NCBI RefSeq assembly: GCF_023023025.1
Contig: NZ_CP095481.1
Span: 3,844,001 to 3,908,000, forward strand
Direction of reading: 5' to 3'
DNA from: Amycolatopsis sp. WQ 127309
GTDB taxonomy: Bacteria; Actinomycetota; Actinomycetes; Mycobacteriales; Pseudonocardiaceae
DNA length: 64,000 bases
Position numbers and translations under genes: made by a program
In this document: piece after piece, positions 8,750 to 58,863 of the stretch
How positions within the stretch are numbered: position 1 is the stretch's first letter
Layout of the letters: each line of letters opens with the position of its first letter
Notes under the pieces: generated by a model
Database searches by the model: none
What the model was told of the DNA's origin: nothing
Seen by the model: the letters and a program-made list of their open reading frames with translations, nothing else

Positions 8750-8751
8750 CC

Positions 8752-10386: not shown

Positions 10387-10395
10387 GGTGGGGCC

Positions 10396-14095: not shown

Positions 14096-14111
14096 GTCCG
14101 TAGGCTTCTCC

Positions 14112-14154
14112 GAAGGCCACCATGAGGACATCTAAGTCCCTCATGGTGGCCTTC
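14112..14154. terminator. Hairpin terminator after nudC
   Basis: Perfect 16-base arms (14112-14127 and 14139-14154, beginning GAAGGCCACCATGAGG) with an 11-base loop, 17 bases after the nudC stop. A run of T is not present, as is usual for actinobacterial terminators. Confidence 0.7.
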
Positions 14155-14536
14155 AGTGCGTTCGGCCCCGAGCGCCGCCAAGGCGGCCTTGGGGCGCGTG
14201 GCCCATCGGCTGCGCCTGGCCGCTCGGTGCCGGCCGCGACTTGGATCCAGCACACCGTCCCGCTCCCGGAGCGTGACGCCGTCCAAATCGCCGATCGGGC
14301 GCAAAGCGGACCATAGCTCGAAGCCGATCGGCTCATCGACGTTCCCCAGAGGACCTGCGCATCCGCGTGGTCTGGTGGCGGATCCCCAGCCCCCGCAAGC
14401 CGCTTTCCGGTGACGCGCTGACCGGCGCAAACGCCCCGCCGCAAATCTCCCACCAGCCGAAACGGCGGCCGGGCTAGTGGGATCCGCCGTGTCACACGCG
14501 CGACTTCAAGCGTTACCTGGCCGTTTCCCGAGCCCG
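14155..14536. other. Intergenic stretch without a recognisable gene
   Basis: About 380 bases between the nudC hairpin and the ROK promoter. Short open frames exist on both strands, but none has a convincing ribosome site, a recognisable domain or codon use like the neighbours. It may hold gene remnants, but nothing can be named. Confidence 0.5.
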
Positions 14537-14600
14537 TTGACGGCTGTGCCGCGGCTCACTACAGTCCCCGGAAACCGTCTGTAAAGTATCCTAATTAAGT
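14537..14600 (+). promoter_or_regulatory. ROK operon promoter with downstream operator candidate
   Basis: TTGACG (14537-14542), a 17-base spacer and TACAGT (14560-14565) form the best sigma-70-type promoter in the window. The start site would fall near 14572. An AT-rich patch at 14583-14599 (AAAGTATCCTAATTAAG) stands out in this GC-rich region, just downstream of the predicted start site. It could be the ROK regulator's operator, acting as a roadblock. Promoter elements are seen; the operator role is inferred. Confidence 0.65.
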
Positions 14601-14614
14601 CGGGAGCGACGACA

Positions 14615-42842: not shown

Positions 42843-43244
42843 GCGGACGAGCTGGCAGGGCGGTCGCGGGCCGGGGCGACCCGGCTCGAGGAAAGTCCGG
42901 ACTCCACAGGGCTGGGTGGTTGCTAACGGCAACCCGGGGTGACCCGCGGGAAAGTGCCACAGAAAACAGACCGCCGCGGCCCGCGAGGGCCGGGGTAAGG
43001 GTGAAACGGTGGTGTAAGAGACCACCAGCGTCCCGGGTGACCGGGACGGCTAGGTAAACCCCACCCGGAGCAAGGCCAAGAGGGAGCTTCGGCTCCTGCG
43101 CAGGCGCTCGAGGACGGCCCGTCCGAGTCTGCGGGTAGGCCGCTGGAGCCTGCCGGCGACGGCAGGCCGAGATGGATGACCGCCGCCCCGCGAGCCGCAA
43201 GGCGACCGGGGAACAGGATCCGGCTTACACGCCAGCTCGTCCGC
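42843..43244 (+). ncRNA. rnpB: RNase P RNA (type A)
   Basis: About 402 nucleotides with the hallmark type A sequences: GCGGACGAGCTGGC at the 5' end pairing with CCAGCTCGTCCGC at the 3' end (helix P1). Also GAGGAAAGTCCGGACTCC (P4 strand), ACAGAAAACAGACCGCC, GGTAAGGGTGAAACGGTG and the terminal CAGGATCCGGCTTAC. It is the catalytic RNA that trims tRNA 5' leaders. A TACGAT box (42830-42835) lies seven bases before the predicted 5' end, an ideal promoter position. Ends are set by the P1 pairing and may be off by a few bases. Confidence 0.96.
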
Positions 43245-43347: not shown

Positions 43348-44208
43348 ATGGCGGGAAACGAGAAGCAGTTCAAGTCGGCTTTCGACTCCTTGCACGCGCT
43401 GACGTACTTCGCGCCCGAGGTCGACGCCGCTCTCACCGGGATCGGGCTGCGACCGGGGCGGATGCCCTACTTCGCCGGCCGCTCCGCCGCCATGGGGCCC
43501 GTCGGCGCCGAGGTCGTCGCGGCCACCTTCTACAACTTCAACCCCGAGGTCGTCGCGCGGGTGATCCCGCGGGCCTGGACGCTGGCCACGCCCGAGCAGG
43601 TCCTCGAAGCCCGCCTCGACGGCGTCGACAAGGTGCTGACCCGCCTGCTCGGCGACGACACCCTCAAGAGCGAAGAGGTGGCCGAGGCCGCCGAGCTCGC
43701 CCGGGAGGCCTCGGCCGGCTGCACCGCCGAAGGCCGTCCCCTCTACGCCGCGCACGCGGCGCTGCCCTGGCCCGACCAGCCGCACCTCGCCCTCTGGCAC
43801 GCCATCACGCTGCTGCGCGAGTACCGCGGCGACGGCCACATCGCCGCGCTCGTGCTCAACGGCCTCGGCAACATCGAGGCGCTGATCACGCACGTCGCCA
43901 CCGGCGACGGGTTCGTGCCCGAGGTCGCCAAGCTCACCCGGGGCTGGAGCGACGAGCAGTGGGCCGCCGCCGAAGCCGGGCTGGCCGGCCGCGGGATCCT
44001 CGACGCCGAGGGCGCGCTCACCGAGGCGGGCGTCGCGCTGCGCGACCGGGTCGAGGTCGCCACCGAGGCCGCCGCGACCGGGCCGTGGGACCTCCTGGGG
44101 CCGGAGAAGACGGCCCGGCTCGAGCTGCTGTGCCGCGCTCTCAGCCGCCAGGCCGTCGAGGCCGGTGCCTTCCCGGAAGGCGTGTTCGCCGGCCGCCGGC
44201 GCGTCTGA
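43348..44208 (+). CDS. Conserved actinobacterial protein, SCO6745-like
   Basis: A 286-residue, mostly helical, soluble protein beginning KQFKSAFDSLHALTYFAPEVDAAL, with a repeated Ala/Leu-rich helical pattern and LHALWHAITLLREYRGDGHIA-like sequence (here LALWHAITLLREYRGDGHIA). It looks like a family annotated in actinobacteria only after Streptomyces SCO6745; I know no function. The C-terminal half could be a winged helix (EQWAAAEAGLAGRGILDAEGALTEAG). TAGGGT (43336-43341) sits six bases before the ATG, so it is probably leaderless and independently transcribed. Confidence 0.7.
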   Translation: MAGNEKQFKSAFDSLHALTYFAPEVDAALTGIGLRPGRMPYFAGRSAAMGPVGAEVVAATFYNFNPEVVARVIPRAWTLATPEQVLEARLDGVDKVLTRLLGDDTLKSEEVAEAAELAREASAGCTAEGRPLYAAHAALPWPDQPHLALWHAITLLREYRGDGHIAALVLNGLGNIEALITHVATGDGFVPEVAKLTRGWSDEQWAAAEAGLAGRGILDAEGALTEAGVALRDRVEVATEAAATGPWDLLGPEKTARLELLCRALSRQAVEAGAFPEGVFAGRRRV

Positions 44209-44663
44209 ATGGAGCAAGATCACGCTATGTAGTGAAACTTGTGTGAGGTCTTGAACACCTAGTGACGGACGTTCGCGGCCGCCAAGATCGGGATCTCGGC
44301 GGACCGGTCCACTCGGCGTCACAGTGTGGACTCCTGCAAGCCCGCCGTTCGGGTCGTGTCACACTGTTTCGGGCCCGGCGACGGTCACAAGCCGGGCACG
44401 CAAAGTGAGCGATTCTCTGCCAAGAGAGTGAGTTCGGCACTGCGACAAAAACGATGGGCGGCCGGGCTTTGACCGGAGGACCCTTGCCGCGATGATGGTG
44501 GGCGTGGAGATTTCGGGTAATAAGCGCGCCGTCCCGGTTGAGCAGCGAGCCGGTACCTACTCAGCGCGCTTTGACCGCTACCCCTCGTAGCCGCCATGAT
44601 GTTGTTCGAAGCACTGCTTGAGCCAGAACCGCGCGGCCCCCACCGCGCACCGGGAGTAACGCG
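44209..44663. other. Long non-coding spacer before the secretion-like cluster
   Basis: 455 bases with less G+C than the flanking genes and no frame that looks coding. It should contain the promoter of the 44.6-56.2 kb cluster. Short inverted pieces such as TCACAGTGTGGA and GTGTCACACTG (about 44320-44370) are visible, but no clear -35/-10 pair. Confidence 0.5.
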
Positions 44664-44930
44664 ATGATGACCTTGACCACCCTCGACACGCTGGCCGCAG
44701 GCGAGCTGGGCACCGGAAACGTGCGCCAGTGGCTGCTCGACAACGTCATCCCCCTGGTGCTGCTGTCCGTCGCGCTCCTGCTCCTGTGGCTGGGTGGCGG
44801 CAAGGGCGACAACGCCGGCGTGATGCGCAGGCTCGCCGGCGTGGTCATCGCGCTGGCGATCATCGGACTCGCGGTCAGCGGCGCCGGCGTCAACGTCGGC
44901 CAGTGGATCGCCGGCCTGTTCACCGGCTGA
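44664..44930 (+). CDS. Small two-helix membrane protein, VirB2/pilin-like
   Basis: An 88-residue protein with two transmembrane helices (about residues 27-44 and 58-77) joined by a short Gly/Lys-rich loop (WLGGGKGDNAGVMRR). Small two-helix proteins at the head of type IV secretion clusters are VirB2/TrbC-type pilin subunits, and this gene begins a cluster with a VirB4-like ATPase. The VirB2 label rests on topology and position, not sequence identity. GGGAG lies eight bases before the ATG. The next gene follows after 13 bases. Confidence 0.6.
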   Translation: MMTLTTLDTLAAGELGTGNVRQWLLDNVIPLVLLSVALLLLWLGGGKGDNAGVMRRLAGVVIALAIIGLAVSGAGVNVGQWIAGLFTG

Positions 44931-44943
44931 GGCAGGGGCCCGC

Positions 44944-45477
44944 GTGCGCATCAGGACTGATGACGAGGTCTACCGGGTCGACGCCGTCTGGCTCGGCCCC
45001 CCGAAAGCGACTTTTCCCTGGCGGGCCCGCTACGTCGCGTGGCTCATCGGCATCCCGGTGTTCTTCGTGGTCCTCGGCGTCGAGCGCTGGGCCGGGTGGA
45101 GCTTCGGGTTCTTCTCGACGGCGTGGGCGTTCATCGCCACCATCGTGGTGACCCGGCTGCTGACGGCCAAGATCAGCCACGAGCGGCCGCTCGGCACCGT
45201 GGTCTCGATGGCCGGGCGCGAGCTCAACACGCCGCGGCAGGCGACCACGGGCACGGGCGGCGCCGTCAGCGCCAGCCGCGTCCGGGTGCGGGCCGAGCGC
45301 CCGTTGCCGAAGCACCGCCGGAGACGGCAGTACCGGCACCACGGCCCGCAGCCGGGTGCCGTGGCCACCCATGCCCCCACCACCGCCTCAACGGAAGCGC
45401 TACGCGCCGCGGTGTCTGTCAGAGGAACCCCACGAGCGCGCCCGAGCCGCCGCGGTGCGGCCCGGGCCGGGAGGTAG
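44944..45477 (+). CDS. Membrane protein, VirB3-like by position
   Basis: A 177-residue protein with a soluble N-terminus, two adjacent transmembrane helices (about 33-52 and 56-76) and a basic, low-complexity C-terminal half. VirB3/PrgI-type proteins have this shape and usually sit between the pilin and VirB4 genes, as here. The Arg-rich tail may be disordered. GTG start with AGGGG upstream. The next gene's TTG starts three bases after the stop. Sequence alone does not prove the family. Confidence 0.6.
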   Translation: MRIRTDDEVYRVDAVWLGPPKATFPWRARYVAWLIGIPVFFVVLGVERWAGWSFGFFSTAWAFIATIVVTRLLTAKISHERPLGTVVSMAGRELNTPRQATTGTGGAVSASRVRVRAERPLPKHRRRRQYRHHGPQPGAVATHAPTTASTEALRAAVSVRGTPRARPSRRGAARAGR

Positions 45478-45480
45478 TCG

Positions 45481-48462
45481 TTGTTCGGTCGCGGCGGTAG
45501 CCGAGGTAAAGGTCGGGACGCACACTCGGGCGCGTGGCAACCGCCCGAGCAGGTCCGCGCGGCGCGGAACGGTTCGGGTGGCAGCAGCACCAAGGGCCGT
45601 CGCCTGCCCGGTGAGCAGGCGATTCCGGCGTACACCCCGTCGATCGCGGTGCGCAGCATCGACGGTCACCTGGTCCGCAGCGGGTACGAGGTCTACGCCT
45701 GGTACCGGCTGGCGCCGCAGCGCTGGTCGTTCCGCTCCGACTCGCAGCGCCGCGACCTCGTCGCGGCCATCGCCGGCCAGTACGCCGAGCTGCAGGGCCG
45801 CTGGCTGCACCTGCGCGTCACGAACCGGCCGTACCCGATCCGGATGTGGGCCGAGGCGCACGTCTACAACGCGCACGGCCGCCCCAACGACGTCCCGGGC
45901 GCGCTGTCGTTCGACGACTACCTGATCGGCGAGCAGCAGCAGCTGATGGGCCGCTCGATGGCCGAAAAAGAGGTCTACCTGGGCGTCCAGGTGCAGACCC
46001 GGCGGATGGTCGACCGCGCGGTCGAGCGGGCCGCGCCGGTGCTGCGCAAGATCCTGCCCGAGGCCGTCGACGCCGAGCTGACCGCGCTGGACTCCGAGGT
46101 CGAGCACCTCGACCAGGTCATCGGCAGCGCCGGGCTGGAAGGCCGGCCGGTGCACGCCGAGGAGATGTCCTGGCTGATGCACCGCTCGTGCTCGCTCGGC
46201 CTGCCCGCGCCGCGGAACATGCCCGCGGTGCCCGGCGCGGCCTGGGAGCCCGAGGACCTGGCCAGCTTCACCGACGCCGCCGACTACTACGCCGACCCGT
46301 ACGCGCCGACCGTGACCGTCCGCGGCCGCACCGGCTCCAACGCCGGCGTCTCGCGCCACCTGGCGATCCTCACCGTCGGGCAGATGCACGGCCTGCAGAT
46401 CCCCGAGGTCGACGACCCGTGGATCCAGCACGCCGACCGGCTGCCCGCCGCCGTCGAGGTGTCCGCGCGGATCTACGTCCGGCGCCCCGAGGAGGTCGCG
46501 GGCGAGCTGGCGCGCCAGATGAACAAGGTGCGCTCGCAGGTCAAGCACTACACCGACGAGCACGAGCTGGAGCCGCCGCAGTCGCTGTCGCGCCAGGCCG
46601 GTCGGGTGCTGGAGATCGACGACGAGATGACGTCGGGCTTCACCGCGCTCGCCACCCGCGTGCGCTCGTGGTGGCGGCTGGCGGTGTCCGGCCCGACCGA
46701 ACGGGACGCGCTGCGCCTGGCCCAGCAGCTGCTCGACCTGTACAAGCCGAAGATCGCCATCGAGCACCCGGAAGCCCAGTACGCGCTGGCGCGGGAGTTC
46801 ATCCCGGGCGAGCCGCTGGCCTCGGCGGCCTACATGCGCCGCGGCTCGGTCGTCTGGGGCGCGTCCGCGGTGCCGACGGCGACCGCGGAGGTCGGCGACC
46901 GGCGCGGCATTCTGCTCGGCGAGACCTGCACGGCGACCCGGCGCCCGGTGGCCTGGGACCCGTGGATGGCCCAGGAGATCCGCGACGGCTCGGGCCTGAC
47001 CGCGATGGTCGCCGGCCTGGGTGCCGGCAAGTCGTTCCTCGGCGGCGGCATCGTCTACAAGACGCTGCGCGCCGGGGCGAGCTGGACGCTGCTCGACCCG
47101 TCGGGCCCGCTGTCGCGGCTGTGCGACCTGCCGGAGCTGCGGCCCTACGCCCGGCCGATCAACCTGCTCAACGCCCAGCCCGGCATCCTCAACCCGTACC
47201 GGGTGGTCGCCGAGCCGCTGATCGAGCACTTCATGGACGAGGACGACCCCGAGCGCTCGTGGCGCCGCGAGAAGGCCCTCGCGGGCGCGACGCGACGGCG
47301 TCTCGTGCTGGACGTCCTCACCGGCGTCCTGCCGTACGAGGTGTCGCGGATGGCGCAGACCCGGATCGTGCTGCTGCGCGCGGTCCGCACCGTCGGCGGC
47401 CGGTTCGACGCCGACCCGGGCCAGGTGATCGACGCCCTGCGGCGCGACTCGAGCGAGCACCACGAGCACGCGGGCGTCGTCGCGGACTTCCTCGACGAGA
47501 TGCGCGAGCGGATGGCGCTGCTCATCCCGGAGACCGACGCCGACCCGTACGCCGAGACCCGCGACGACCGGCTGACGGTGCTGACCATGGCCGGGCTGAC
47601 CCTGCCGAAGGACGGCGTCCCGCGCGAGTACTGGACGGACGCGGAGTCCCTCGGCGTCGAGATGCTGAACCTGGCGGCGTGGCTGACCCAGCGGTCGGTC
47701 TACGAGAAGCCGAAGGAGATGCGCAAGGGCGTCTGGATCGACGAGGCGTTCTTCCTGTCGGAGGTGCCGACCGGGCGCGTGCTGATGAACCGCTTCGCGC
47801 GTGACTCGCGCAAGTGGAACGTCCGCGTGCTGCTGTCGTCGCAGATCCCGGCGGACTTCCTGAAGATCCAGGGTTTCGTGACCCTGCTGGACTCGGTGTT
47901 CGTCGGGCGCCTGGACGACGACGACGCCCAGGCGGACGCGCTGCGGCTGCTGAAGGTCCCGGTGGGCGTCGGCTACGAGCAGGTCGTCGCGGCGCTGGGC
48001 CGCCGCCCGGGAGCGCAGCAGCGCGGCCTGGAGCGGGACATCGAGCCCCGCCAGTTCATCTTCGGCGACGGCGCGGGCGGCGTGGAGCGCATCCGCGTCG
48101 ACTTCTCCGGCCCGCACCTGGACCACCTGCGCCGGGTGATGGACACGACGCCGGGCTCGAAGGACGCGGAGAAGCCCCGCCGCCCGGGCACGGAACTGGC
48201 CCTGCCTCACACGGAGGAGAAGAAGCCGTTCGTGGCGGCCCCACCGGAAGACGACATCGAGCTGGAGCAGGACTTCGAGCTGGCGGCGGAGCTGGAGGTC
48301 GGCTTGGCCGACGAGAACCTGCTGGGCGCACCGGACCCACTGGCCTCGGAAACGGGCGAAGTCCAGGGCGACGTCCAGCAGCCTGCGAACGGCAACGGAC
48401 ACGGCGGGCAGCAACACGCCCGCACGGGCGGGAAGGGCGGCACCGGCCGGGACGCCGCATGA
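45481..48462 (+). CDS. VirB4/TraC-like secretion ATPase
   Basis: A 993-residue cytoplasmic ATPase. The N-terminal ~480 residues match the TraC/VirB4 membrane-associated half. Walker A GLGAGKSF lies at about residues 513-520 and Walker B WIDEAF at 752-757. A later RVLLSSQIPADF is the conserved VirB4 motif C region. VirB4 ATPases power pilus and substrate movement in type IV secretion. A TTG start with GGGAGG just upstream is used; no better codon is near. The acidic C-terminal ~120 residues are low complexity. Same type as Streptomyces SCO6880, which is chromosomal. Confidence 0.9.
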   Translation: MFGRGGSRGKGRDAHSGAWQPPEQVRAARNGSGGSSTKGRRLPGEQAIPAYTPSIAVRSIDGHLVRSGYEVYAWYRLAPQRWSFRSDSQRRDLVAAIAGQYAELQGRWLHLRVTNRPYPIRMWAEAHVYNAHGRPNDVPGALSFDDYLIGEQQQLMGRSMAEKEVYLGVQVQTRRMVDRAVERAAPVLRKILPEAVDAELTALDSEVEHLDQVIGSAGLEGRPVHAEEMSWLMHRSCSLGLPAPRNMPAVPGAAWEPEDLASFTDAADYYADPYAPTVTVRGRTGSNAGVSRHLAILTVGQMHGLQIPEVDDPWIQHADRLPAAVEVSARIYVRRPEEVAGELARQMNKVRSQVKHYTDEHELEPPQSLSRQAGRVLEIDDEMTSGFTALATRVRSWWRLAVSGPTERDALRLAQQLLDLYKPKIAIEHPEAQYALAREFIPGEPLASAAYMRRGSVVWGASAVPTATAEVGDRRGILLGETCTATRRPVAWDPWMAQEIRDGSGLTAMVAGLGAGKSFLGGGIVYKTLRAGASWTLLDPSGPLSRLCDLPELRPYARPINLLNAQPGILNPYRVVAEPLIEHFMDEDDPERSWRREKALAGATRRRLVLDVLTGVLPYEVSRMAQTRIVLLRAVRTVGGRFDADPGQVIDALRRDSSEHHEHAGVVADFLDEMRERMALLIPETDADPYAETRDDRLTVLTMAGLTLPKDGVPREYWTDAESLGVEMLNLAAWLTQRSVYEKPKEMRKGVWIDEAFFLSEVPTGRVLMNRFARDSRKWNVRVLLSSQIPADFLKIQGFVTLLDSVFVGRLDDDDAQADALRLLKVPVGVGYEQVVAALGRRPGAQQRGLERDIEPRQFIFGDGAGGVERIRVDFSGPHLDHLRRVMDTTPGSKDAEKPRRPGTELALPHTEEKKPFVAAPPEDDIELEQDFELAAELEVGLADENLLGAPDPLASETGEVQGDVQQPANGNGHGGQQHARTGGKGGTGRDAA

Positions 48463-48554
48463 CCGCCGCCCGGAGCCGAAGTACCGGTGCCGGTCGTAGC
48501 AGCGGCTTCGCCACCGGCGTCGCCGACCCGGCGACCGCGGAGCGTGGCGCATGA
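48459..48554 (+). CDS. 31-residue coupled small open frame
   Basis: A 31-codon frame whose ATG overlaps the VirB4-like stop (ATGA) and whose stop overlaps the next gene's ATG (ATGA). Its peptide is Ser/Gly/Arg-rich with no recognisable motif. It could be a real small protein or simply a relay that couples translation of the two big genes. Evidence is only the double overlap. Confidence 0.35.
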   Translation: MTAARSRSTGAGRSSGFATGVADPATAERGA

Positions 48555-50716
48555 GCACCCTGCTGACGTTGGCGGTCCTGCTGTCGATGGCCGCCGGGTG
48601 GCACGCGCTGAAGCGGCGGATCAAGGAAGGCCCACGCCGACCGGGCCGCCGCACCCCGAGCCGCAAGGCGACGATGTTCGCCGTCATGCTGGTCCTGGGC
48701 CTGCAGGCGATCGCGACGGCCCCAGCGGCGAGCGCGGCGGCGTGCGGTGAGGCGCCGAACCCGGAACGCCCGGGCGCGGGCATGGTCGGTGCCCTCGACC
48801 CGCCGGACGGCGTGCACGGTGAGGGTTTCAGCCCGTATCGGGCGTACGGCTACGCCGGCATGGTCTGGGACACGTTCGAAACCGACTGCGGCCCGCTGTC
48901 GGGGATCGGCTCGCCGAACTCGGCGATCGACACCTGGGCCGGCAACCAGCTGTTCAGCCTCGGCAAGAACATCGTCGGGGCGACCAACTCGCTGCACTAC
49001 ACGGTTCTGCAGGGCAGTCTGCTCAGCCCGCTCTACAACGCCGTCAAGGCGGGCGCGGACAAGATCTACAACAACATCTACGCCCAGTTGTTTGGCCTGG
49101 TCGCCTTGATCATGTCGATCATGATGTTCCGCAACATCTGGCGGGGCGACCTCGCGGCCGTGAGCAAACGTGCCCTCTACGGGCTCGCCGCGGTCTGGCT
49201 CGCCGCGTCTTCGCTGGCCCTGTTGCGGTACCTCGACCCGATCGACAACGCGATCGTGCAGACCACGACCAACATCCAGGCCGGCTTCGTCGACGCCGGG
49301 CCGCCGACGGCGCCGCCGCCGCAAGATCCGGCGCAGGGCCAGATCTCCTGCCAGAACAAGGGAACCACGGCCGGCCGGCCGACCTGGGACATCCTGCCGA
49401 CCGACCTGCACTGCCAGATCGTCTACGAGAACTGGCTGCGGGGCGAGTTCGGCTCCGCGACGGCACCACAGGCGCAGCAGTTCGGTGCCCCGTTGCTGGA
49501 CGCGCGTGCCTTCACCTGGGACCAGATCCAGAAGGGTGGCGACGGCGACGCCGGCCTCGTGGACGCGAAGAAGGCCGCTTACAAGGACATCTCCACGAAG
49601 CTCGGCCCCGCCACGGGGTACTTCACCGGCGAGGCCGGTGGCCGCACCGGTGCCGGGTTCCTTTCGCTCGGCCAGGCGCTCGTGTATTCGCTGTTCCAGC
49701 TGCTGGCCAAGGCATCCATCCTGCTCGCGCAGGTGCTGATCCGGCTGTTCGCCTTGACCGCCCCGTTGATCGGCTTGATCGCACTGCTCCAGCCGCAGGT
49801 TCTCCCCCGCGTGCTCAAGGTCGCCGGGGGAGTGGCGTTCAACCTGATCGTGCTCTCGGTACTCGCCGGCGTGCACATGCTGCTGCTCCAAGCGATCTTC
49901 GGTGCCGGGAACTCCCTCAACATGCTCACCCAGATGGTGCTCGCCGGGCTGATCACCGTCCTCTTGTTCATGGTCGGCCGCCCTGTCCGGCGGCTGTGGC
50001 AGATGGTCGAGATGTCCGTCAGCATGGTCGGCGCCGCCGTGCCGTCGCCGAGTGGCGGGATCTTCTCCCGGTTCCGGCGCAACAACAATGGCCCGACGCC
50101 GCAGGACGCGTTCTGGCAGAACGTGCGCGAGACCGACGACGTCGTCGACGGCGAGCAGCGCGGGCCGATGGGGGCGACCGTCGGTGGGGGGCGGTTCCGG
50201 CCGGAGGCGACGATCTTCGCCAACGCCCAGCGGCTCGACAACAACGGCACCAGTGCGTCCCGGCCGGCCGCGGCGTGGTCCGGCGCGTGGCCGGGGGCCA
50301 TCGGCGGTGGCTCGGCCGGTGCCCTGCCCTCGGGCGGCCGCCCGGGCTCTCCCGTGTACGGCCAGTACAACCCGGCCGGCGGTGACCCCGGCGAGTACGT
50401 CGTCGTCGGCGCCGGGGGGCGGCCGACCGTGCGGGGCGAGGAAAGCCGCCGCGTCGACACCTCGCCGGTGGCCGACCGGCGCTGGAACGACGAGCCCGAG
50501 CCCGTCGTCGTCCCTTCCGACCTGCGCACGCCCGAAGCCGACTTCAGCGGTTACACCCCGCCGGAAGCGCCGCGGGCTCCGGGAGTGCGGGCGACGCCGC
50601 GTCGCGTCGACCCCGAGGTCGTCGCGGGCAAGCCGGTCTTCGTGCTGTACCGGCCGTCGCGGGGCATCGAAGTCCGCGAGGAACCGCGTGACACCGACCA
50701 AGTGATGGGGCGGTGA
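48551..50716 (+). CDS. Polytopic membrane protein, VirB6/TrbL-like
   Basis: A 721-residue protein with two N-terminal hydrophobic segments (about 1-18 and 38-58, the second ending ASAAAC like a signal sequence) and an extracytoplasmic loop with three cysteines. Clusters of transmembrane helices follow near 175-225 and 375-470 (LALLRYL, LIRLFALTAPLIGLIALLQ). A ~230-residue low-complexity tail ends the protein. VirB6/TrbL proteins form the inner-membrane channel of type IV systems and have this layout. The ATG overlaps the preceding small frame. Family by architecture and position. Confidence 0.7.
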   Translation: MSTLLTLAVLLSMAAGWHALKRRIKEGPRRPGRRTPSRKATMFAVMLVLGLQAIATAPAASAAACGEAPNPERPGAGMVGALDPPDGVHGEGFSPYRAYGYAGMVWDTFETDCGPLSGIGSPNSAIDTWAGNQLFSLGKNIVGATNSLHYTVLQGSLLSPLYNAVKAGADKIYNNIYAQLFGLVALIMSIMMFRNIWRGDLAAVSKRALYGLAAVWLAASSLALLRYLDPIDNAIVQTTTNIQAGFVDAGPPTAPPPQDPAQGQISCQNKGTTAGRPTWDILPTDLHCQIVYENWLRGEFGSATAPQAQQFGAPLLDARAFTWDQIQKGGDGDAGLVDAKKAAYKDISTKLGPATGYFTGEAGGRTGAGFLSLGQALVYSLFQLLAKASILLAQVLIRLFALTAPLIGLIALLQPQVLPRVLKVAGGVAFNLIVLSVLAGVHMLLLQAIFGAGNSLNMLTQMVLAGLITVLLFMVGRPVRRLWQMVEMSVSMVGAAVPSPSGGIFSRFRRNNNGPTPQDAFWQNVRETDDVVDGEQRGPMGATVGGGRFRPEATIFANAQRLDNNGTSASRPAAAWSGAWPGAIGGGSAGALPSGGRPGSPVYGQYNPAGGDPGEYVVVGAGGRPTVRGEESRRVDTSPVADRRWNDEPEPVVVPSDLRTPEADFSGYTPPEAPRAPGVRATPRRVDPEVVAGKPVFVLYRPSRGIEVREEPRDTDQVMGR

Positions 50717-50719
50717 CGG

Positions 50720-51325
50720 ATGCCGATCCGGACCAACCGCGGCCGCGCCGCGGTCTACCGCCGCCTGTGGGGCTTTCCGCTGCGCTCGCCGCGCCACCTC
50801 ATCGGGACGCTGGTGTTCCTGGCCATCCTGGTCACCGTGCTCGGCATCGTGGTGCCCAAGGTGATGGGCAAGCAGCCGGCCAAGGCGTCGCCGCTCGCCC
50901 CCGGCACGACCACCACGTCGGTCACGGCGACGCAGCCGGGCGTCGCCGCTTCGGTGCCGACGTCCAACCTGCCGACGCGCCTGTCCCAGCCGCTGGTCAC
51001 CCCGACGACGGCGGCGCCGAACGGGGACGCCGTCCGCGTCGCGAAGGAATGGGCAGCGGCCTGGGTGAACCACCCGGCGGGCATCACGTCGGCGCAGTGG
51101 CTGGAGCAGCTGAAGCCCTTCACGACCGAGGAGTACCTGCCGGTGATGTCGTCGGTCGACCCGGCGAACGTCCCGGCCACGAAGGTCACCGGTGAGCCGA
51201 CGGTCGGCACGTCCTACACCAGCTCGGTGCAGCTGACGATCCCCACGGACGGGCCGAAGCTCAGCATCACGGTCGTGAGCACCAACGCGGGCTGGCGGGT
51301 CGCCGACTACGACCAGGCGAGCTGA
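50720..51325 (+). CDS. Single-pass protein with NTF2-like domain, VirB8-like
   Basis: A 201-residue protein: a basic cytoplasmic N-terminus, one transmembrane helix (about 27-48), a Pro/Thr/Ser linker and an extracytoplasmic domain (about 105-200). That domain opens AVRVAKEWAAAW and ends with strands like SITVVSTNAGWRVADY, typical of NTF2-like folds. VirB8 and its Gram-positive relatives (TcpC, TraM) are exactly this: one helix plus NTF2-like domain. Three bases separate it from the VirB6-like stop; the P60 gene starts two bases after its own stop. Confidence 0.7.
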   Translation: MPIRTNRGRAAVYRRLWGFPLRSPRHLIGTLVFLAILVTVLGIVVPKVMGKQPAKASPLAPGTTTTSVTATQPGVAASVPTSNLPTRLSQPLVTPTTAAPNGDAVRVAKEWAAAWVNHPAGITSAQWLEQLKPFTTEEYLPVMSSVDPANVPATKVTGEPTVGTSYTSSVQLTIPTDGPKLSITVVSTNAGWRVADYDQAS

Positions 51326-51327
51326 CC

Positions 51328-52329
51328 GTGCGGCGGCTGGGGCTGTGGCTGGGACTGGTCGTGTTCGTCGCGATCGGCGCCCTCATCGTCACCGCCGTCG
51401 CCGCCAAGGTCGTCATCGACAACCAGCAGGCGCAGGCCCGGGGCGTCTCCCTGACCAGCTGCGACGCCTCGGTCGGCCCGACCCAGCCCGGTGAGGGCGA
51501 GCGCGGCACGGTCGACGCGTCGAACCTGGACGACGAGCAGCGCGGCACGGTCGCGCTGATCGTTTCGATCGGCAAGCAGCGGTCGCTCGCGCCGCGGGCC
51601 TGGCAGGTCGCGATCCAGGCCGGCATGACCGAGTCGGGGCTGCACAACCTGACCTACGGCGACCGCGACTCCCTCGGCATCTTCCAGATGCGCCCGTCGA
51701 TGGGCTGGGGCACGTACGCGCAGGTCACCGACCCGACGTACGAGGTCAACAAGTTCTTCGACGTCCTGCTGGCGGTGCCGGACTGGGAGAACATGCGCCC
51801 GGGGGACGCCGCGCAGCGGGTCGAGCGCTCGGGGTTCCCGGACCGCTACCACAAGTGGGAGCCGATGGCGGCGACGCTGGTGGAGAACGTCGGCCAAGTC
51901 GTCGACGTCGTCGCCTGCGGCACCGGGCTGGGCCAGCTGCTGCCGCCGAGCCAGGCCGCCGCGAAGGCGATCAGTTTCGCGCTGGGTGAGCAGGGGAAGC
52001 CGTATGTGTGGGGCGCCACAGGGCCCGGCTCGTACGACTGTTCGGGTCTGATGCTGCGGGCCTACGAGTCGGCCGGGATCATCCTGCCGCGCGTCTCGCG
52101 TGATCAGTACCACGCGGGCGCGATGCTGCCGGTGCGTGAGGCGCAGCCCGGTGACCTGCTGTTCCTCGCGAACAATCCGGCGGATCCCAACACGATCCAC
52201 CACGTGATGATGTACCTCGGTGACGGCAAGGTCGTCGAGGCCCAGCAGACCGGTGTCCCGGTGCACACACGGGCGTTCTCGTTCGATGAGGCCGAAGTGG
52301 TGCCGCAGGCGGTCCGGCCCGGCGTTTAG
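51328..52329 (+). CDS. Lytic transglycosylase-like plus NlpC/P60 peptidoglycan hydrolase, VirB1-like
   Basis: A 333-residue, exported, membrane-anchored wall hydrolase. The N-terminal helix (about 4-28) is an anchor or signal. Residues ~70-190 resemble a lysozyme-like domain (GMTESGLHNLTYGDRDSLGI, FQMRPSMGWG) with a Glu near 102. Residues ~205-330 are an NlpC/P60 endopeptidase with catalytic Cys238 in DCSGLM and His near 291 in IHHVMMYLG. In secretion clusters such proteins (VirB1, TcpG) open the wall. GTG start two bases after the VirB8-like stop. Confidence 0.88.
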   Translation: MRRLGLWLGLVVFVAIGALIVTAVAAKVVIDNQQAQARGVSLTSCDASVGPTQPGEGERGTVDASNLDDEQRGTVALIVSIGKQRSLAPRAWQVAIQAGMTESGLHNLTYGDRDSLGIFQMRPSMGWGTYAQVTDPTYEVNKFFDVLLAVPDWENMRPGDAAQRVERSGFPDRYHKWEPMAATLVENVGQVVDVVACGTGLGQLLPPSQAAAKAISFALGEQGKPYVWGATGPGSYDCSGLMLRAYESAGIILPRVSRDQYHAGAMLPVREAQPGDLLFLANNPADPNTIHHVMMYLGDGKVVEAQQTGVPVHTRAFSFDEAEVVPQAVRPGV

Positions 52330-52448
52330 CATGGGTTAAAGCCCCTTGACACGAGCGGGCCGGCGGATGGGCCGACAACGGAACCGATTCACCCGACGTC
52401 GCGGCGCCTCCACCAGCAGGTGGCCGCGTACTGGCAGAGGATGAGCAC

Positions 52449-55400
52449 GTGGGACGGAAATTCGGCAAGCGAGGCAAGCCCGGCGGTCCCCAGGACCCCG
52501 CGTCGCTGTTCGGCGCGCCCCAGCCGCCGCGGCAGTCGGCTCGCCCCGCCTCCAGCACCCCGCTGGCCGACCAGCTGAGCGTCGGCTACCCCGGCGTCGA
52601 CGCGGGGTACGTCGTGTTGCCCCGGTCGCTGGCCGAGGGGATGTCGCTGCCGTGGCAGCAGCAGATGGCGGCGCTGCTGGCCCAGTTCCACGCCGAGAAC
52701 GCGCGCCTGGCGTGGCCGATCTACCGGGTGGTCCCGTCCCGCTACGAAAAGCTGGGTGACCTGGACGAGGAGCAGCTGGCGGAGGCGGGCTACCTGGTCG
52801 AGATGGACGCCGACGGCGAGATGGTCTACCGCGAGCGCAGCGGCCGCAAGGTGGAAGACCCGATGAACACGACGGTCCTGGTGTCGAGCCTGGACCCGAT
52901 CCCCAAGCCGGCGGCGCGACCTCAGGCTCCGCCACCGGGAGCACCACCGCCGCCTGGGCAAGCGCCGGCGGCGATGAACATCGGCCCCGCACCGGTGTGG
53001 CGCACGATGCCGCACGGCCAGCCGGGACAGCCGGCGACGTCGGGACAGCCCGTGTCCTCGGGGCAGCCTGGTCCTGCGGTTTCTTCGGGCCAGTCGGCAC
53101 CTGCTGTTCCCCAGGCCTCCTCGGGCCAGTCGGTTCCTTCTGGCCAGGCGGCTCCGTCGGTTCCCCTAGCTCCCCAGGCCGCTCAGACCCCCTCGGCTCA
53201 GGCGGCTCCTTCTGGTCAAGCAGCTCCTTCGGTTCCTTCAGCTGCCCAGGCCCCCTCGATGCCCGCGGCTCCGTCGGTTCCGGAGTACCAGCCGGGGCGT
53301 CCGGCGGGCGTCGAGACGCCCGCTGAGCCACGGCCGGGAGCGGCGAGCCGTCCGGCGGGGTTCGCCGAGTCGCGGCCGGAAGGGCCGGGCCGGGCCGAGC
53401 CCGAGCCGCCCGCGGGGTCCGGGGCGTCGATCACGGGCCCGTCGTGGGGCCACATGGAGGACGCGTCGCCGAGCCGCCACCGCCCGGAACCCCCGCCGAG
53501 CTGGGAGCACCGCGCCCCGGAGCCGGAGTGGTCGGTAACCGCGGAGGCGGACCTCCCGAGCCCGGTGGCCCCCCATCAGACGGCTCGCCACGCGGCCCCG
53601 GAGACATCCGAGCCCGCCGGCCCACTACCGCCGTACGTGGGCGAGTCACGGCATGCACCCCCAGCCGAGCAGCTCGAGGTGCCGACAGCGTCCGCGCGGC
53701 CTGAAGGCGCCCAGCCGGAGATGCCCGCGGTGAAGTCACCGGCAGCCCCCATCCAGTCGGATCTCCGCCCGCCGGAAGCGGCTCAGCCAAACCTCCCCGC
53801 GGAGGATCACCACCCGGAGCCTCCCGCCGAGTCGGCCCCGAGCGAGCCGGCACTGGCCGACCAGCCCGTCCCGGAGCCGGCAGGCGCCGCACAGTCCGGC
53901 GAGTTCCACCCGGAGCCCTCGGCTGTCCCAGCGACGAGCGAGTCCGCGCGACCCGAGGCCGATCCGAAGTTGGAGTCACCGGTCGAACCGGCGCCTCTCA
54001 CCAGGGAGCCGGAACCGACGCCGGAGCCCGAAGCGCCGGTCACCGAGTTTCAGGCCGAACCAACGCCGGAGCCTGAAGCTCCCACGGGGGAGTTCCAGGC
54101 AGAGGCAGCATCGCAACCCGAAGCTGCCGCCACGGAGTTCCGGGCGGAACCGGCGCCGGAATCCGAGGCGCCCGCTGCGGAGTTCGGCGCAGAATCGGCG
54201 CCGGATCGCGAGGCCCCTGTCGCGGAGTTCCGAACCGAACCGGCACCGGTACGCGAGGCTGCCACGGAGTTCGATGCGGAGCGTGCGTCGGAACTTGAGG
54301 CTCCCGCTGCGGAGTTCCGCGCAGAATCGGCGCCGCAGTCTGACGTTCCTGTCGTGGAGTTCCAGGCGGAACCGGCGCCGGAATCTGAGGCGCCCGCTGC
54401 GGAGTTCCAGACAGAGGTGGCAACGCAACCCGAAGCTCCCGCTGCGGAGTTCGAGGCGGCACCGGCGCAGCAACCTGAACCTGCTGCGGAGTTCCGGACA
54501 GAACCTGCGTCGCAGCCTGAAGCGGCCGCTGAAGAGGCGCAGGCAGAACAGGCCCCCGCGCCCGAGGTGACGGCCCAGCCTGTGGCGTCCGAGCCCGTGG
54601 TGCCGGTGGGGTCGTCCGCTCAGCAGGGTGATGAGTCTCGGTCGCTGCCTGTCGAGCAGACGACACAACCCGACCAGTCCGCCGAGCCACCTACGGTCAC
54701 GCAGGCCGACTCGTATTCCGGTGTGCCCGTCGCGGAGCCTGGCCAGTCCGTGCCGGAACCTGGCCGGCCCGTCGAGTCGACGACGGTCGGGGAGGGCGCG
54801 TCGGTCTCGCGGTCTGAGGCACCCGTTGTGGAGCCCGCCGGGCCGGCGACAGTCCCTGATGCCGATCCGGCGTCGTACTCGGACGCGGCCGTTGCGGAGG
54901 CTCCTCCGCAGCGACCAGAGCCGTCTGACTCGCAGCTGCCGCAATCCGAAGAGCCACAGGCTGCTCCGGGGGTCGATTTGCCGACCTCGCTCGCCGGCGA
55001 GTCCGCTCGGCGGCTTCCCGAGGAGGCTGCGGTGCCGCCTGCCTCGCCCGATCAGCCCGTGACATCGCCGGCTGGTTGGCGACCTGGTCAGCCCGTTGTT
55101 CCGCCGGCTGCACCGCAGGCTTGGCAGCCCGGCGCACCCACCGGCCCCGGCTCGCCACAGCCCGGCGGCCTCGTGGTGCCGCACCCGGTGCCTGAGGCCG
55201 GTCCGCAGCCTGGGGGACCTTCGCCGCAGCACGGCCATTCCGCTGTACCGCCGGCCGCGGCGTCTTTGCCGCAGCCGGTTCAGCCTGCGGCGCCGCAGGG
55301 GGTTCAGCCTGTCGCGCCGCCTCCTGGTCCGCAGCCCGGCCAGCCTCAGCAGCAGTCAAGTCCGGCCGTGCTTCCGACCGCTCAGCAGCAGCCCAACCAG

Positions 55401-56168
55401 GCCGCACCGCAGCTCGGCCAGCCTCAGCAGCACTCCATCCAGGCCTCGCCGCCGCTCGGTCAGCCGCAGCCGACGCAGGCCGGGCCGCAGCCCGCTCAAC
55501 CTCAGCCGAACCAGGCCGCGACCCAAGCAGGTCAGCCCCAGCCGCCAGCGGTTCAGCCTCAGCCGCCGACAAGCCAACCCCAGCCGCCGACGGGCCTGTC
55601 CCAGCTGCCAGCAGTCCAACCTCAGCCGCCTACGGGCCAACCCCAGCCGCCAGCTGGCCAACCCCAGCCGCCGACGGGCCAGTCCCGGCTGCCAGCAGTC
55701 CAACCTCAGCCGCCTACGGGCCAACCCCAGCCGCCTACGGGCCAACCTCAGCCGCCGACAAGCCAACCCCAGCCGCCTACGGGCCAACCCCAGCCGCCCC
55801 AGCAGTGGGGTCCTGGGCCAGTCACCGGCCCCACTCGCAGCCAGCCCGCCAAGCCCGTCTTCCCCGGTCCGGAATCGACCCCTCAGCCCTTCCCGGCCCG
55901 GCACGCCGCCCCGGTGCGGCCCGTCTTCCCGGGGCCGAACTCCACGCCGCCGCCTAATCCGCAGGCTCCGCCCGTCTTTCCCGGGCGGGAGCCCCAGCCC
56001 CTTCCGCAGCCGAGCGCGCAGGACGCCGACACTCCTCCGCGCGGGACCGCCATGCCCTCGCGTGGCTGGTTCGACGAGATCGGTGAGCAGCCCGCCGACC
56101 CCGAGGAACCTCAGGAGTTCGGGCCCACCGGGCTGCCGACCGAGATCCCCTACCGGTACAAGCGCTGA
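52449..56168 (+). CDS. Giant repeat-rich protein with conserved N-terminal domain
   Basis: A 1239-residue protein. Residues ~35-150 form a compact, conserved-looking domain ([57 protein letters not shown]). The remaining ~1080 residues are low complexity. They are Ala/Pro/Glu-rich first, with eleven 14-15-residue EF-headed repeats (533-695), then Gln/Pro-rich with QPQPPTG repeats near the end. No signal peptide or membrane helix is seen, so it is probably cytoplasmic. GTG start with GAGG upstream. Placement downstream of the wall hydrolase suggests a scaffold or substrate of the cluster; function unknown. Confidence 0.75.
54045..54533 (+). repeat. Eleven 42-45 bp in-frame repeats (EF-headed units)
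   Basis: Consecutive protein units of 14 or 15 residues each begin with Glu-Phe and follow EFxAEPAPxxEAPAA, residues 533-695 of the giant protein. DNA copies diverge at many third and some first positions, so it is an old expansion. A regular acidic-aromatic spacing suggests a repeated binding module or extended rod. Confidence 0.8.
55533..55803 (+). repeat. QPQPPTG-type short tandem repeats
   Basis: A run of 7-residue units ([21 protein letters not shown] and relatives) in the C-terminal part of the giant protein. Underlying 21-base DNA units are much more alike than in the EF repeats, with nearly identical copies at 55615-55710 and 55695-55790, indicating recent slippage. Sequence and assembly errors are easy here. 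Confidence 0.75.
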
Positions 56169-56200
56169 CAGACTCGCCCCGGGATGCCAGGCTTGGGGAC

Positions 56201-56386
56201 ATGGCGAAAGACGCGAACCCGGACCCTGGCTGGTACTACAACACCCGCACCAACCAGGTCGAGCACCTCGAACGCTCCCGCGGCGTCGACCTGCTCGGCC
56301 CGTACCCCGATGAGGCCACCGCCCGCCGCGCGCTCGACATCGCGCGGGAACGGACCCGGCAGGCCGACGCCGAAGACGCCGACTAG
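56201..56386 (+). CDS. Small SPOR-like protein
   Basis: A 61-residue protein: PGWYYNTRTNQVEHLERSRG then LLGPYPDEATARRALDIA, a short aromatic-rich beta-alpha unit like the half-size SPOR-like proteins common in actinobacteria. Function unknown; SPOR domains bind denuded peptidoglycan, but this protein has no signal peptide. It lies 32 bases after the giant gene. Its stop shares the tetranucleotide CTAG with the stop of the convergent ATPase gene. Confidence 0.75.
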   Translation: MAKDANPDPGWYYNTRTNQVEHLERSRGVDLLGPYPDEATARRALDIARERTRQADAEDAD

Positions 56387-57327
56387 ACCGTCACCTGCGG
56401 GCCCAGCACGAACTCGGGGTCCACTTGGGAGACGAGGTCGGCGCCCGCCCACGCCTTGGCGTTGCGCAGGTGGAATTCGACGGCTTGACGCTGGTAGCGC
56501 GCCCAGTCGCGCTGCTCGGCGTCGACCGCCGCCTGCATCGCGCACAGCGTCGACAGGTTGCGCGGCTCCAGCTCGCCGATCGGGCGGGTCGCGCCGCGCT
56601 CGGCCGCGCGCACGTGGCCCGAAGCCGACATCCAGCCCAGCAGCGCCCCGCCGACCTGCTCCTGCAGGAACTCGACGTCCTCGTCGTCGGTCACCTTGTT
56701 CCCGACCACCACGAGCCGCACGCCGAAGTCGCGTGCGTGGTCGGCGTACTGCCGGTAGACGCCCACGCTGCGCACCGTCGGCTCGCACACCAGGAACGTC
56801 ACGTCGAACCGCGTGAACAGCCCCGACGCGAAGGCGTCGGCCCCCGCGGTCATGTCCATCACGACGTACTCGCCGTCGACGTCGACCAGGTGGTTCAGCA
56901 GCAGCTCCGCCGCGCCGACCTTCGAGTGGTAGCACTTGACGCCGAGGTCGTCCTCGTCGAACTGCCCGGTCACGCCGAGGCGCACGCCGCCCAGCTGCCG
57001 GAAGCACGTGTCGAACACCGGGTTGTCCTCGAACGGCCTGACCAGCCGCGACCCGCGCCCCGGTGGCGTCGTCTTGATCATCGACGCGGCATCCGGGATG
57101 CGCGGGTTGTCGCCGCGCAGGTAGTCCTTGATCAGGGTCATGTTGTCGCCGAGCGTCGGCCAGGCGAGTGCTTCCTCCTCGGTCGCGCCGAGCGCCACCG
57201 CGAGGTGCTGGTTGATGTCGGCGTCGATGGCCAGCACCGGCTTGCCGGCGGCGGCGAGGTACGCGACGAACAACGACGACAGCGTGGTCTTGCCGCTCCC
57301 GCCCTTGCCGACGAACGCGATCTTCAC
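56383..57327 (-). CDS. CooC/MinD-type P-loop ATPase
   Basis: A 314-residue SIMIBI-class ATPase with a deviant Walker A loop (VGKGGSGKTTL, both signature lysines) at the N-terminus. AIDADINQHLAVALG follows, then VVMDMTAGADAFASGL, the DxxxG-like switch II. CooC, ArsA and MinD relatives dimerise on ATP and move metals, proteins or septum factors. No CO dehydrogenase or nickel enzyme is nearby. It is convergent with the secretion-like cluster, so a partition-like role for that cluster is possible but unproved. The GGAAGG ribosome site lies before the ATG. Confidence 0.85.
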   Translation of the reverse strand: MKIAFVGKGGSGKTTLSSLFVAYLAAAGKPVLAIDADINQHLAVALGATEEEALAWPTLGDNMTLIKDYLRGDNPRIPDAASMIKTTPPGRGSRLVRPFEDNPVFDTCFRQLGGVRLGVTGQFDEDDLGVKCYHSKVGAAELLLNHLVDVDGEYVVMDMTAGADAFASGLFTRFDVTFLVCEPTVRSVGVYRQYADHARDFGVRLVVVGNKVTDDEDVEFLQEQVGGALLGWMSASGHVRAAERGATRPIGELEPRNLSTLCAMQAAVDAEQRDWARYQRQAVEFHLRNAKAWAGADLVSQVDPEFVLGPQVTV

Positions 57328-57444
57328 GGTCGAGACCCTTCCTGGGAATGAAGACGGTTTTCATTACTGACGCGATCAACGTACACCCGACCGGCCCGCG
57401 CCCGATCGGGCGATCATCGGCCTTTCGCGGGTTAGGGTTGGGGG

Positions 57445-58863
57445 GTGCCTCCCCTCGTGATCAGGACACACTCGGCGGGCGGGGACTTCGGCCCCCTTCG
57501 TGCCGAGTTTTCGCTGCCGGAGTCCTTCGGGCCCGAGGTGCTGGCCGAGGCCGAAGCCGCGGTCCTGGATCCCCTGGCCGCGGCCGGGCCCCGGGAGGAC
57601 GCCACGGACCTGCCGTTCGTCACCATCGACCCGCCCGGCTCCAAGGACCTCGACCAGGCGATGGTCGTCGAGCGCACCGCGCACGGCTTCCGCGTGCACT
57701 ACGCGATCGCCGACCTGGCCGCGTTCGTGCCGCCCGGCGGTGCGCTGGACCGGGAGTCGCGCCGGCGCGGGCAGACGCTCTACCTGCCCGACGGCAACGT
57801 CCCGCTGCACCCGCCGGTGCTGTCCGAGGGCGCGGCGAGCCTGCTGCCCGGCGAGATCCGGCCCGCCGTGCTCTGGACCATCGAGACCGACGAAGCGGGC
57901 GAGCCGACGGCGACCCGGGTGCGCCGCGCGCTGGTCCGGTCCACCGAGCAGTTCGACTACGAGACCGTCCAGGCCGCCCTCGACGCCGGCGACCCGCACC
58001 CTTCGGTGGCCGCGCTGCCGGAGCTGGGACGGCGACGGCGGGAGCTGGCCGTCCGGCGCGGCGCCGTCGAGCTGCAGCTGCCCGAGCAGGAGATCAGCGG
58101 CGACCCGGACGGCGGCTGGGTGCTCGCCCGCCGTCCGCGCACCGTCGTCGACGCCTGGAACGCCGAGATCTCGCTGCTCACCGGGATGGCCGCGGCGCGG
58201 ATCATGATCGACGCGAAGATCGGCGTCCTGCGCACGCTGCCCGACCCGGAACCCGAGGCCGTCGACTGGCTGCGCCGCTCCGCCGAGGCGGTCGGCATCG
58301 CCTGGCCGGCGGCCGACACCGTCTCGGAGTTCCTGTCCCGGCTGGATCCCCGGCAGCCCGCGTCGATGGCGATCTACGCCGATACGACGCGGTTGCTGCG
58401 CGGCGCGGGCTACACGGCCTTCGACGGCGAGCTGCCCGCGCTGACGACGCACGCGGGCATCGGCGGCGCGTACGCGCACGTGACGGCGCCGATCCGGCGG
58501 CTGGTCGACCGGTTCGCGACGGAGATCTGCCTCGCGGTTTCGGCCGATCGCGAGGTGCCGGAGTGGGTCCACGCGGCGCTGACGGACGTCCCGGACCGCA
58601 TGACGGCGTCGGACACCCTCGCCGCGAAGGTCGAGCGGGCGTGCATCGACCAGGTCGAGGCGTGGGTGCTGGCCGAGCACGTCGGCGGCGAGTTCAGCGC
58701 CGTCGTGCTGCGGGCGGACGAGAACAAGGCCGAGATCCTCGTCGAGGACCCGACGGTGATGGCCAAGTGCGCGGGGGAGAAGCTGACCGCGGGCGCGCGC
58801 ATCGGCGTGCGGCTGACCGCGGTGGACGTCGAGAAGCGGAAGGTGTCGTTCGAACGCGCATGA
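57445..58863 (+). CDS. RNB-domain ribonuclease (RNase II/R family)
   Basis: A 472-residue 3'-5' exoribonuclease-like protein containing an RNB domain (about residues 55-370) and short flanking parts, without cold-shock or S1 domains. The active-site segment is IDPPGSKDLDQAM; the usual DxxxxxDxDD has Gln in the last position. Further RNB blocks are RGQTLYLPDGNVPLHPP and YAHVTAPIRRLVDRF. Short RNB proteins of this kind are common in actinobacteria. TAGGGT (57433-57438) is six bases before the GTG, suggesting leaderless transcription. Its stop overlaps the next ATG. Confidence 0.88.
   Translation: MPPLVIRTHSAGGDFGPLRAEFSLPESFGPEVLAEAEAAVLDPLAAAGPREDATDLPFVTIDPPGSKDLDQAMVVERTAHGFRVHYAIADLAAFVPPGGALDRESRRRGQTLYLPDGNVPLHPPVLSEGAASLLPGEIRPAVLWTIETDEAGEPTATRVRRALVRSTEQFDYETVQAALDAGDPHPSVAALPELGRRRRELAVRRGAVELQLPEQEISGDPDGGWVLARRPRTVVDAWNAEISLLTGMAAARIMIDAKIGVLRTLPDPEPEAVDWLRRSAEAVGIAWPAADTVSEFLSRLDPRQPASMAIYADTTRLLRGAGYTAFDGELPALTTHAGIGGAYAHVTAPIRRLVDRFATEICLAVSADREVPEWVHAALTDVPDRMTASDTLAAKVERACIDQVEAWVLAEHVGGEFSAVVLRADENKAEILVEDPTVMAKCAGEKLTAGARIGVRLTAVDVEKRKVSFERA

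Follow-up and report, generated by a model that had tools for sequence, protein, structure and literature searches.

A resident type IV secretion-like gene cluster in the family of Amycolatopsis that probably acts in the cell envelope

The subject of this analysis is a cluster of seven genes in a stretch of 64,000 nucleotides of Amycolatopsis sp. WQ 127309 (positions 3,844,001-3,908,000 of a single-contig genome of 11.13 Mb), the whole of which is called the window here and whose own numbering is used below. All seven genes lie on the plus strand, and the products of the first six, at 44664-52329, resemble components of a type IV secretion system (T4SS), namely, in this order, a pilin-like, a VirB3-like, a VirB4-like, a VirB6-like, a VirB8-like and a VirB1-like protein. 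This is the order, in one direction, that the original prediction had read from the sequence. It had also taken the cluster for a resident machine without a part in conjugation, and our follow-up supports this view: VirB4 is present in 150/150 genomes sampled from the family, the gene order is kept in 76/80 related loci, the chromosomal VirB4 copies of the family form a clade of their own (15/15 tips) and no transfer genes occur among the 47 window products scanned. We consider it somewhat better than an even bet (a probability of about 0.55) that the cluster encodes a T4SS-like machine across the envelope which is resident, passed on vertically and not conjugative, in an actinobacterial family with many mycelial species; that it serves hyphal growth or differentiation is proposed with less certainty. 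Its apparently permanent chromosomal place across the family, together with the lack of DNA-handling parts at the locus, makes it probable that the cluster acts in the cell envelope instead of moving DNA.

With respect to function, the point of reference is the cmd operon of Streptomyces coelicolor. According to the part of the report available to us, SCO4126-4131 are co-transcribed, and the cmdB transcript is raised at aerial growth; strains without the operon branch aberrantly and are defective in septation and chromosome segregation, loss of cmdA alone has no such effect, and transfer of an SLP2-derived plasmid is not significantly different in the cmd mutant (PMC2782261). The hydrolase gene tgdA (SCO4132), which adjoins cmd, affects differentiation and actinorhodin, as stated in the accessible portion of a second report (PMC6585502). 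The best reading, by analogy, is that the Amycolatopsis cluster would be a counterpart of cmdABCDEF/tgdA and not its ortholog, and what we say of its function is borrowed on these terms.

Distribution, gene order and descent

The VirB4 gene was found in all 150 sampled genomes of Amycolatopsis's family, mostly in single copy, and thereby in 44/44 genera. Beyond the family, matches were obtained in 23 of 30 genomes of a set of relatives, in 113 of 248 genomes of the order and in at least 45 of 296 genomes of the class, the last figure being a lower bound because the class search scored two candidates per genome. A T4SS-type machine for which no DNA-handling gene was found at the locus is thus kept by 150/150 sampled genomes of one family, in culturable antibiotic producers, and since these hosts can be cultured, the question of its function is open to simple deletion.

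A gene-neighbourhood survey across actinobacteria had been proposed as a check of the original prediction. Gene order was compared in the best 80 of 179 relatives, a set biased to close kin, with the genera Amycolatopsis (closest, up to 97% identity), Prauserella, Saccharomonospora, Lentzea, Saccharothrix and others, which we take to be Pseudonocardiaceae, and with two metagenome-assembled genomes. The seven genes lie in order in 76 of these 80 loci; three of the four exceptions are on contigs that break off (at lengths of 4.3, 4.5 and 12.6 kb), and the fourth (L138) is on a contig with 400 Ns. In a further set of 40 loci, the six T4SS-like genes are in order in 27, of which 14 are from Amycolatopsis's family, and the remaining loci are without a recognisable pilin or more. 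Over the 76 complete loci, the distance matrices of the seven proteins agree with each other (r 0.70-0.94), and mean identity is highest for VirB4 (87%), intermediate for the hydrolase (66%) and lowest for VirB8 (48%).

The VirB4 tree (44 sequences, 860 columns) places the chromosomal copies of the family in one monophyletic group (15/15 tips, support 1.0). The copies of f14 (6 tips) and of f28 (7 tips) are each monophyletic as well, with support 1.0. We take f30, the family that holds the cmd-type loci, for Streptomycetaceae, and the family names behind f14, f13, f11, f28 and f30 are all presumed in this way. Plasmid and accessory copies sit on long branches, and support at the exact sister of the family's clade is poor (0.22-0.75). 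The phage records of the collection hold no VirB4 relative at an E value of 1e-5.

DNA-transfer genes and plasmid relatives

The original prediction had noted the absence of a relaxase, a VirD4 coupling protein and an integrase, and indeed no type IV coupling protein (T4CP), relaxase, integrase, transposase or FtsK-type transfer gene was found among the 47 window products scanned (8 of the 53 called open reading frames (ORFs) were left out). The window has no tRNA gene either. TrwC, the one relaxase family searched for genome-wide, gave no match. The sole PF02534 coupling protein of the genome lies 3.1 Mb from the cluster, at genome positions 7,014,497-7,014,760, and belongs to a second T4SS cluster. 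This second cluster (4327-14704 of locus L094, approximately 7,011,300-7,021,700 of the genome) contains a C40 hydrolase, a Replic_Relax protein (E 1e-52), a T4CP-like protein of 836 aa, a VirB4-like ATPase of 608 aa, a PrgI protein (E 7e-21) and VirB6-like and pilin-like ORFs.

Seven T4CP-, FtsK- and Replic_Relax-type queries, run as single-sequence phmmer searches and thus of limited reach, matched none of the 14 family loci of the 40-locus set and one of the 80 loci (L149, weakly); elsewhere, they matched L058, L059, L071 and L072. The family's chromosomal copies were considered as an integrative and conjugative element (ICE) or another mobile element, and this was rejected in view of their presence in every sampled genome, the conserved order, the distant coupling protein and the separate clade. 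An ICE or actinomycete ICE would bring an integrase and transfer genes, which are missing from the 47 products, and a patchy presence, which is not seen (150/150). The mobile-element reading is retained for the plasmid relatives only.

These relatives comprise VirB4 matches on 90 plasmid records, every one below 60% identity and 35 of them typed as mobilizable. Three of the 90 were examined in detail (those of Streptomyces sp. 891-h, Pseudonocardia sp. DSM 110487 p1 and Rhodococcus erythropolis pRLCBG43). All three carry the six genes in the same order, with a VirB4 that is 33-42% identical over 84-87% of the query, but, unlike the window locus, they lack the seventh protein (3/3), have long VirB4 branches and have an FtsK-like protein nearby: a divergent FtsK/SpoIIIE protein adjoins the cassette in Rhodococcus, another one is two genes away in Streptomyces, and an FtsK-like protein lies approximately 5 kb past the hydrolase in Pseudonocardia. 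The original prediction had named a relaxase and a coupling protein just outside homologous loci with mobile-element boundaries as what would speak against it. This objection applies to the plasmid relatives only, by way of these FtsK-like proteins, and not to the chromosomal loci of the family. The simplest history, whose direction we infer, would start from a conjugative cassette that turned resident, parted with its motor for DNA and acquired the seventh protein.

It could be argued instead that the cluster is a hidden machine for DNA transfer. It would then be the resident partner of FtsK/TraB-type proteins that have their genes at other sites and move double-stranded DNA from one mycelium, or one hyphal compartment, to another. 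The FtsK-type proteins near the plasmid sets would fit this, as would the segregation defects of cmd mutants (PMC2782261, as far as the available part of the report goes). We nevertheless hold it to be distinctly improbable, given that the seven single-sequence queries for T4CP, FtsK and relaxase genes found nothing in the 14 family loci and a single weak match in the 80, and that the cmd mutant transferred the SLP2-derived plasmid no differently.

Several points weigh against a resident non-conjugative machine with a role in hyphal life. The cmd phenotype is carried over by analogy, cmd not being an ortholog. A DNA motor could still come from a VirD4-type protein encoded far away or from an FtsK-type translocase at some other place in the genome. 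The plasmid cassettes with an FtsK-like protein nearby show that DNA transfer is among the uses to which these six genes can be put. Finally, the f28 locus L059 has, at 18197-19900 and approximately 4 kb past the hydrolase, a CmdA/T4CP- (TraG-)like protein (E 2e-29).

The components and a putative machine

Table 1. Features of the cluster and its upstream region (window numbering).
Feature	Positions	Strand	Basis or remark
Promoter-like pair TTGACC-16-GATGAT (tentative)	44469..44496	+	2 such sites vs 0.5 expected
Pilin-like (VirB2-like) protein, 88 aa, two hydrophobic helices	44664..44930	+	topology, first-gene position in 76/80 loci
VirB3-like small membrane protein, 177 aa	44944..45477	+	position, alignment of 25
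VirB4-like ATPase, 993 aa, Walker A K517, Walker B D754 E755	45481..48462	+	AAA_10 2e-18
VirB6/TrbL-like polytopic protein, 721 aa, six hydrophobic stretches	48551..50716	+	TrbL in relatives
VirB8/TcpC-like protein, 201 aa, one membrane helix and NTF2-like domain	50720..51325	+	predicted fold, VIA-align rows
VirB1-like dual wall hydrolase, 333 aa, membrane anchor, muramidase-like and NlpC/P60 domains	51328..52329	+	
Seventh protein, 1239 aa	52449..56168	+	set member in 76/80 loci
Conserved N-terminal domain of seventh protein (approximately residues 25-165)	52521..52943	+	38 invariant columns
C-terminal 16-residue peptide of seventh protein	56118..56165	+	FGPTG...PYR-type ending in 45/70

The gaps between the genes, from the first to the seventh, are 13, 3, 88, 3, 2 and 119 bases (Table 1). 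A 31-codon ORF (48459-48554) lies between the VirB4 and VirB6 genes and forms ATGA overlaps with the stop of the former and the start of the latter, a hint of translational coupling.

The original prediction held that clear motifs identify only VirB4 and the hydrolase. This has changed for the VirB6 family and the VirB8 fold, both of which now have support from search tools, and it stands for VirB3 and the pilin, for which position and topology remain the sole basis. The VirB4 profile matches structure 4ag5 (3.6e-14), and the active-site residues are retained in 76/76 loci, both in VirB4 (K517, D754, E755) and in the hydrolase (E102, C238, H291, H292). TrbL was matched in 6 of 26 aligned relatives of the VirB6-like protein (best 1.1e-8), not in the window protein itself, and the predicted fold of the VirB8-like protein is nearest to pIP501 TraM. 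Among VirB3-like relatives an RTDD...LGPP...RY motif is kept (alignment of 25); a Pfam search lent no support, and the protein does not match the PrgI-type protein of the second T4SS cluster. The relatives of the pilin gave sparse and weak Pfam matches (T4SS_pilin in 1/21 with E 0.02, TrbC in 1/21 with E 0.15, LiaF-TM in 3/21), so that the pilin is assigned by position.

Variants of this set are seen in other families. The VirB4 frame is lengthened to approximately 1,100-2,000 residues by a long N-terminal part in f13/f14 (L051, L052, L053, L054, L073), and in the f28 locus L055 (12919-17187) a membrane protein of 1029 aa stands between pilin and VirB4, with a second VirB8-like gene (271 aa) upstream.

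A giant repeat protein had been predicted to follow the hydrolase, and it turns out to be a true seventh member of the set. Beyond residue 165 it is rich in proline, alanine and glutamine, in part as tandem repeats; it is long, free of cysteine and apparently unfolded, and no signal or membrane helix was seen in it. Its N-terminal domain, whose invariant columns were counted in 30 sequences picked from the 76, has no convincing Pfam family in any of the 30, and structure comparison gave no confident fold match for the protein. In the 40-locus set, the domain lies 3′ of the hydrolase in 13 of the 14 family loci (it is missing in L048) and in none of the 26 loci from outside the family. The proline-rich linker that follows varies in length among relatives. 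Counted on the 70 complete genes (6 more run off their contigs), the FGPTG...PYR-type end is near-invariant in 45, which are all those with at least 241 residues from the domain start. Counted from the domain start, lengths of 241-1020 residues are found in Amycolatopsis, Prauserella, Saccharomonospora, Qaidamihabitans and Haloechinothrix, and lengths of 152-204 residues in Lentzea, Umezawaea, Saccharothrix, Actinokineospora, Kutzneria, Labedaea, Kibdelosporangium and Tamaricihabitans.

From these parts a putative machine can be drawn. VirB3, VirB4 and VirB6 would make up a platform in the cytoplasmic membrane that is driven by ATP; the part reaching into the wall would consist of VirB8 and the pilin-like protein, and the hydrolase would open the peptidoglycan locally. 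The seventh protein may be a cytosolic adaptor or tether, whose linker would bear a docking peptide at its C-terminus in the Amycolatopsis-type clade. With less certainty, the machine might have a role in the growth or differentiation of hyphae, like that of cmdABCDEF and tgdA in Streptomyces, possibly by the export or placement of protein or wall factors and not by mating. In a wider version, which we put forward tentatively and hold to be less likely than not, a T4SS has become part of the core of a whole family, has given up DNA transfer and now works in the envelope of the hyphae as a machine for export or assembly. Its new subunit in the cytosol would consist of the conserved N-terminal domain, the proline-rich part as an elastic tether and the docking peptide at the C-terminus. 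If this were true, the further lineages that look resident (f14 together with f13 and f11; f28; cmd in f30) would point to repeated domestication across mycelial actinobacteria.

The signal-less seventh protein might otherwise be the substrate, or a substrate adaptor, of a dedicated protein-secretion T4SS directed at the medium or at rival cells. Basic C-terminal signals are known in T4SS substrates, and the last gene has a long, cysteine-free, apparently unfolded product with a basic conserved C-terminus in 45/70 complete loci; no DNA coupling protein was found at the locus either. A Gram-positive T4SS, that of Streptococcus suis, has been reported to secrete a protease (PMC12857230, in the part available to us). 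Yet the N-terminal domain is the half of the seventh protein that is conserved, and the tail is missing in 25/70 complete loci, which is odd for a substrate. Moreover, the scanned products of flanking genes include no toxin or immunity family, and the loci lack the variability that antagonism loci tend to show. We regard a dedicated protein-secretion T4SS as rather unlikely.

Very improbable, in our estimate, is a module for wall remodelling only, in which the machine does no more than place the hydrolase. That enzyme is intact and in the same position in 76/80 loci, and the influence of the tgdA hydrolase next to cmd on differentiation and actinorhodin (PMC6585502, available part) would be in line with it. 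The ATPase, however, is the best conserved protein (87% against 66% for the hydrolase over the 76 loci), a hint that the task of the motor goes beyond placing an enzyme.

Comparison with cmd and the cluster's surroundings

The comparison with cmd was made on three f30 loci (L184-L186) and not on the S. coelicolor record; they were taken for cmd by their gene sizes and the SLP2 ATPase, homologs of which occur in 31/31 genomes and 16/16 genera of f30. In the same direction, these loci carry ORFs for a pilin-like protein, a VirB8-like protein (profile E 2e-6 to 2e-5, hmmsearch, 3/3 loci), a polytopic protein at the VirB6 position that is without profile support, a possible N-terminal half of VirB4, whose similarity is not significant, and a VirB4-type ATPase (profile E 5e-8 to 7e-8; hhalign of profile A5 against the L184 protein, 97% probability, E 6e-11). 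With single L184 proteins, hhalign gave nothing usable for the pilin, VirB8, VirB6 and the VirB4 N-terminal half. The last gene of L184 is weakly TraG-like, under the Pfam cut-off, and a divergent NlpC/P60 hydrolase lies upstream in 2 of the 3 loci (47% identity over 106 aa).

Both systems are thus chromosomal, belong to the core of their own family and have a VirB4-type ATPase, a VirB8-like protein and an NlpC/P60 hydrolase nearby. In cmd, however, VirB4 is an ATPase protein of 475 aa with an apparently separate N-terminal half, as against a single protein of 993 aa in the window; the hydrolase is divergent, the gene order is reversed around VirB4, and the domain of the seventh protein is absent. 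Conversely, no CmdA-like gene was found in the window. The reading as an ortholog of cmd was rejected, the links being limited to the ATPase, the hydrolase and VirB8 (the last by hmmsearch only). The VirB4 of the window is homologous, not orthologous, to CmdB, and cmd appears to be a comparable T4SS-like set that belongs to another lineage. Locus L058 of f30 was first read as a cmd locus and rejected as an accessory copy (7/61 genomes matched, including itself). With L092, it represents an accessory T4SS of one f30 genome that includes a T4CP-like protein of 576 aa and an NlpC/P60-type hydrolase of 701 aa in a divergent unit.

Among the 30 f30 genomes listed with CmdB at E<1e-260, a shallow search found any window-type VirB4 match in 2, and the CmdB query matched 19/40 genomes of Amycolatopsis's family, with a best E of 2e-57 in one and mostly 1e-17 or weaker. 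Window-type VirB4 would thus tend to be rare where cmd is core, and the reverse. That the two systems tend to replace each other may hint at a shared role. The cmd operon, described in 2009, now stands beside other resident T4SS-like systems of actinobacteria.

With the minimal conjugative T4SS of Gram-positive bacteria (pIP501, pCF10, ICESt3) the cluster shares the VirB4 ATPase, the VirB6/TrbL-like subunit, the NTF2-like VirB8 and the VirB1-like hydrolase, and topology and order suggest VirB3- and VirB2-like subunits as well. It differs from these systems in that it is resident and family-wide, without VirD4 and relaxase at the locus, and has an extra seventh protein of no known family. The T4SS of the saccharibacterium Southlakia epibionticum, going by its description in the available part of PMC12857230, is likewise a resident monoderm system with pilin-like genes, kept for the host's own life, but has VirD4 and six pilins, in an epibiotic host; the main text of that paper does not mention 'cmd'. 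We found no description of the Amycolatopsis-family cluster in the literature searched, which was mostly without subscription journals and seen in part.

Upstream of the cluster, a block at 44411-44500 was matched in 26/78 loci in the first round and in 47/78 after one iteration. A control block just downstream did as well (28/78 in the first round), so that special conservation of the upstream block is unsupported. The peptide of a small ORF at 44492-44590 is not conserved, and an Rfam scan of 44000-57500 gave no leader family, its two matches (E up to 1) being far under the gathering scores. The RNase P RNA (RF00010, 285 bits) lies immediately 5′ of the cluster at 42848-43243, and the ORFs listed across it are not genes. 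Elsewhere in the window, DUF58, ricin-type lectin and SpoIIM genes adjoin one another at 785-3880, with an RDD gene next. The RNase II-like flanking gene is present in 51 of the 80 relatives' loci.

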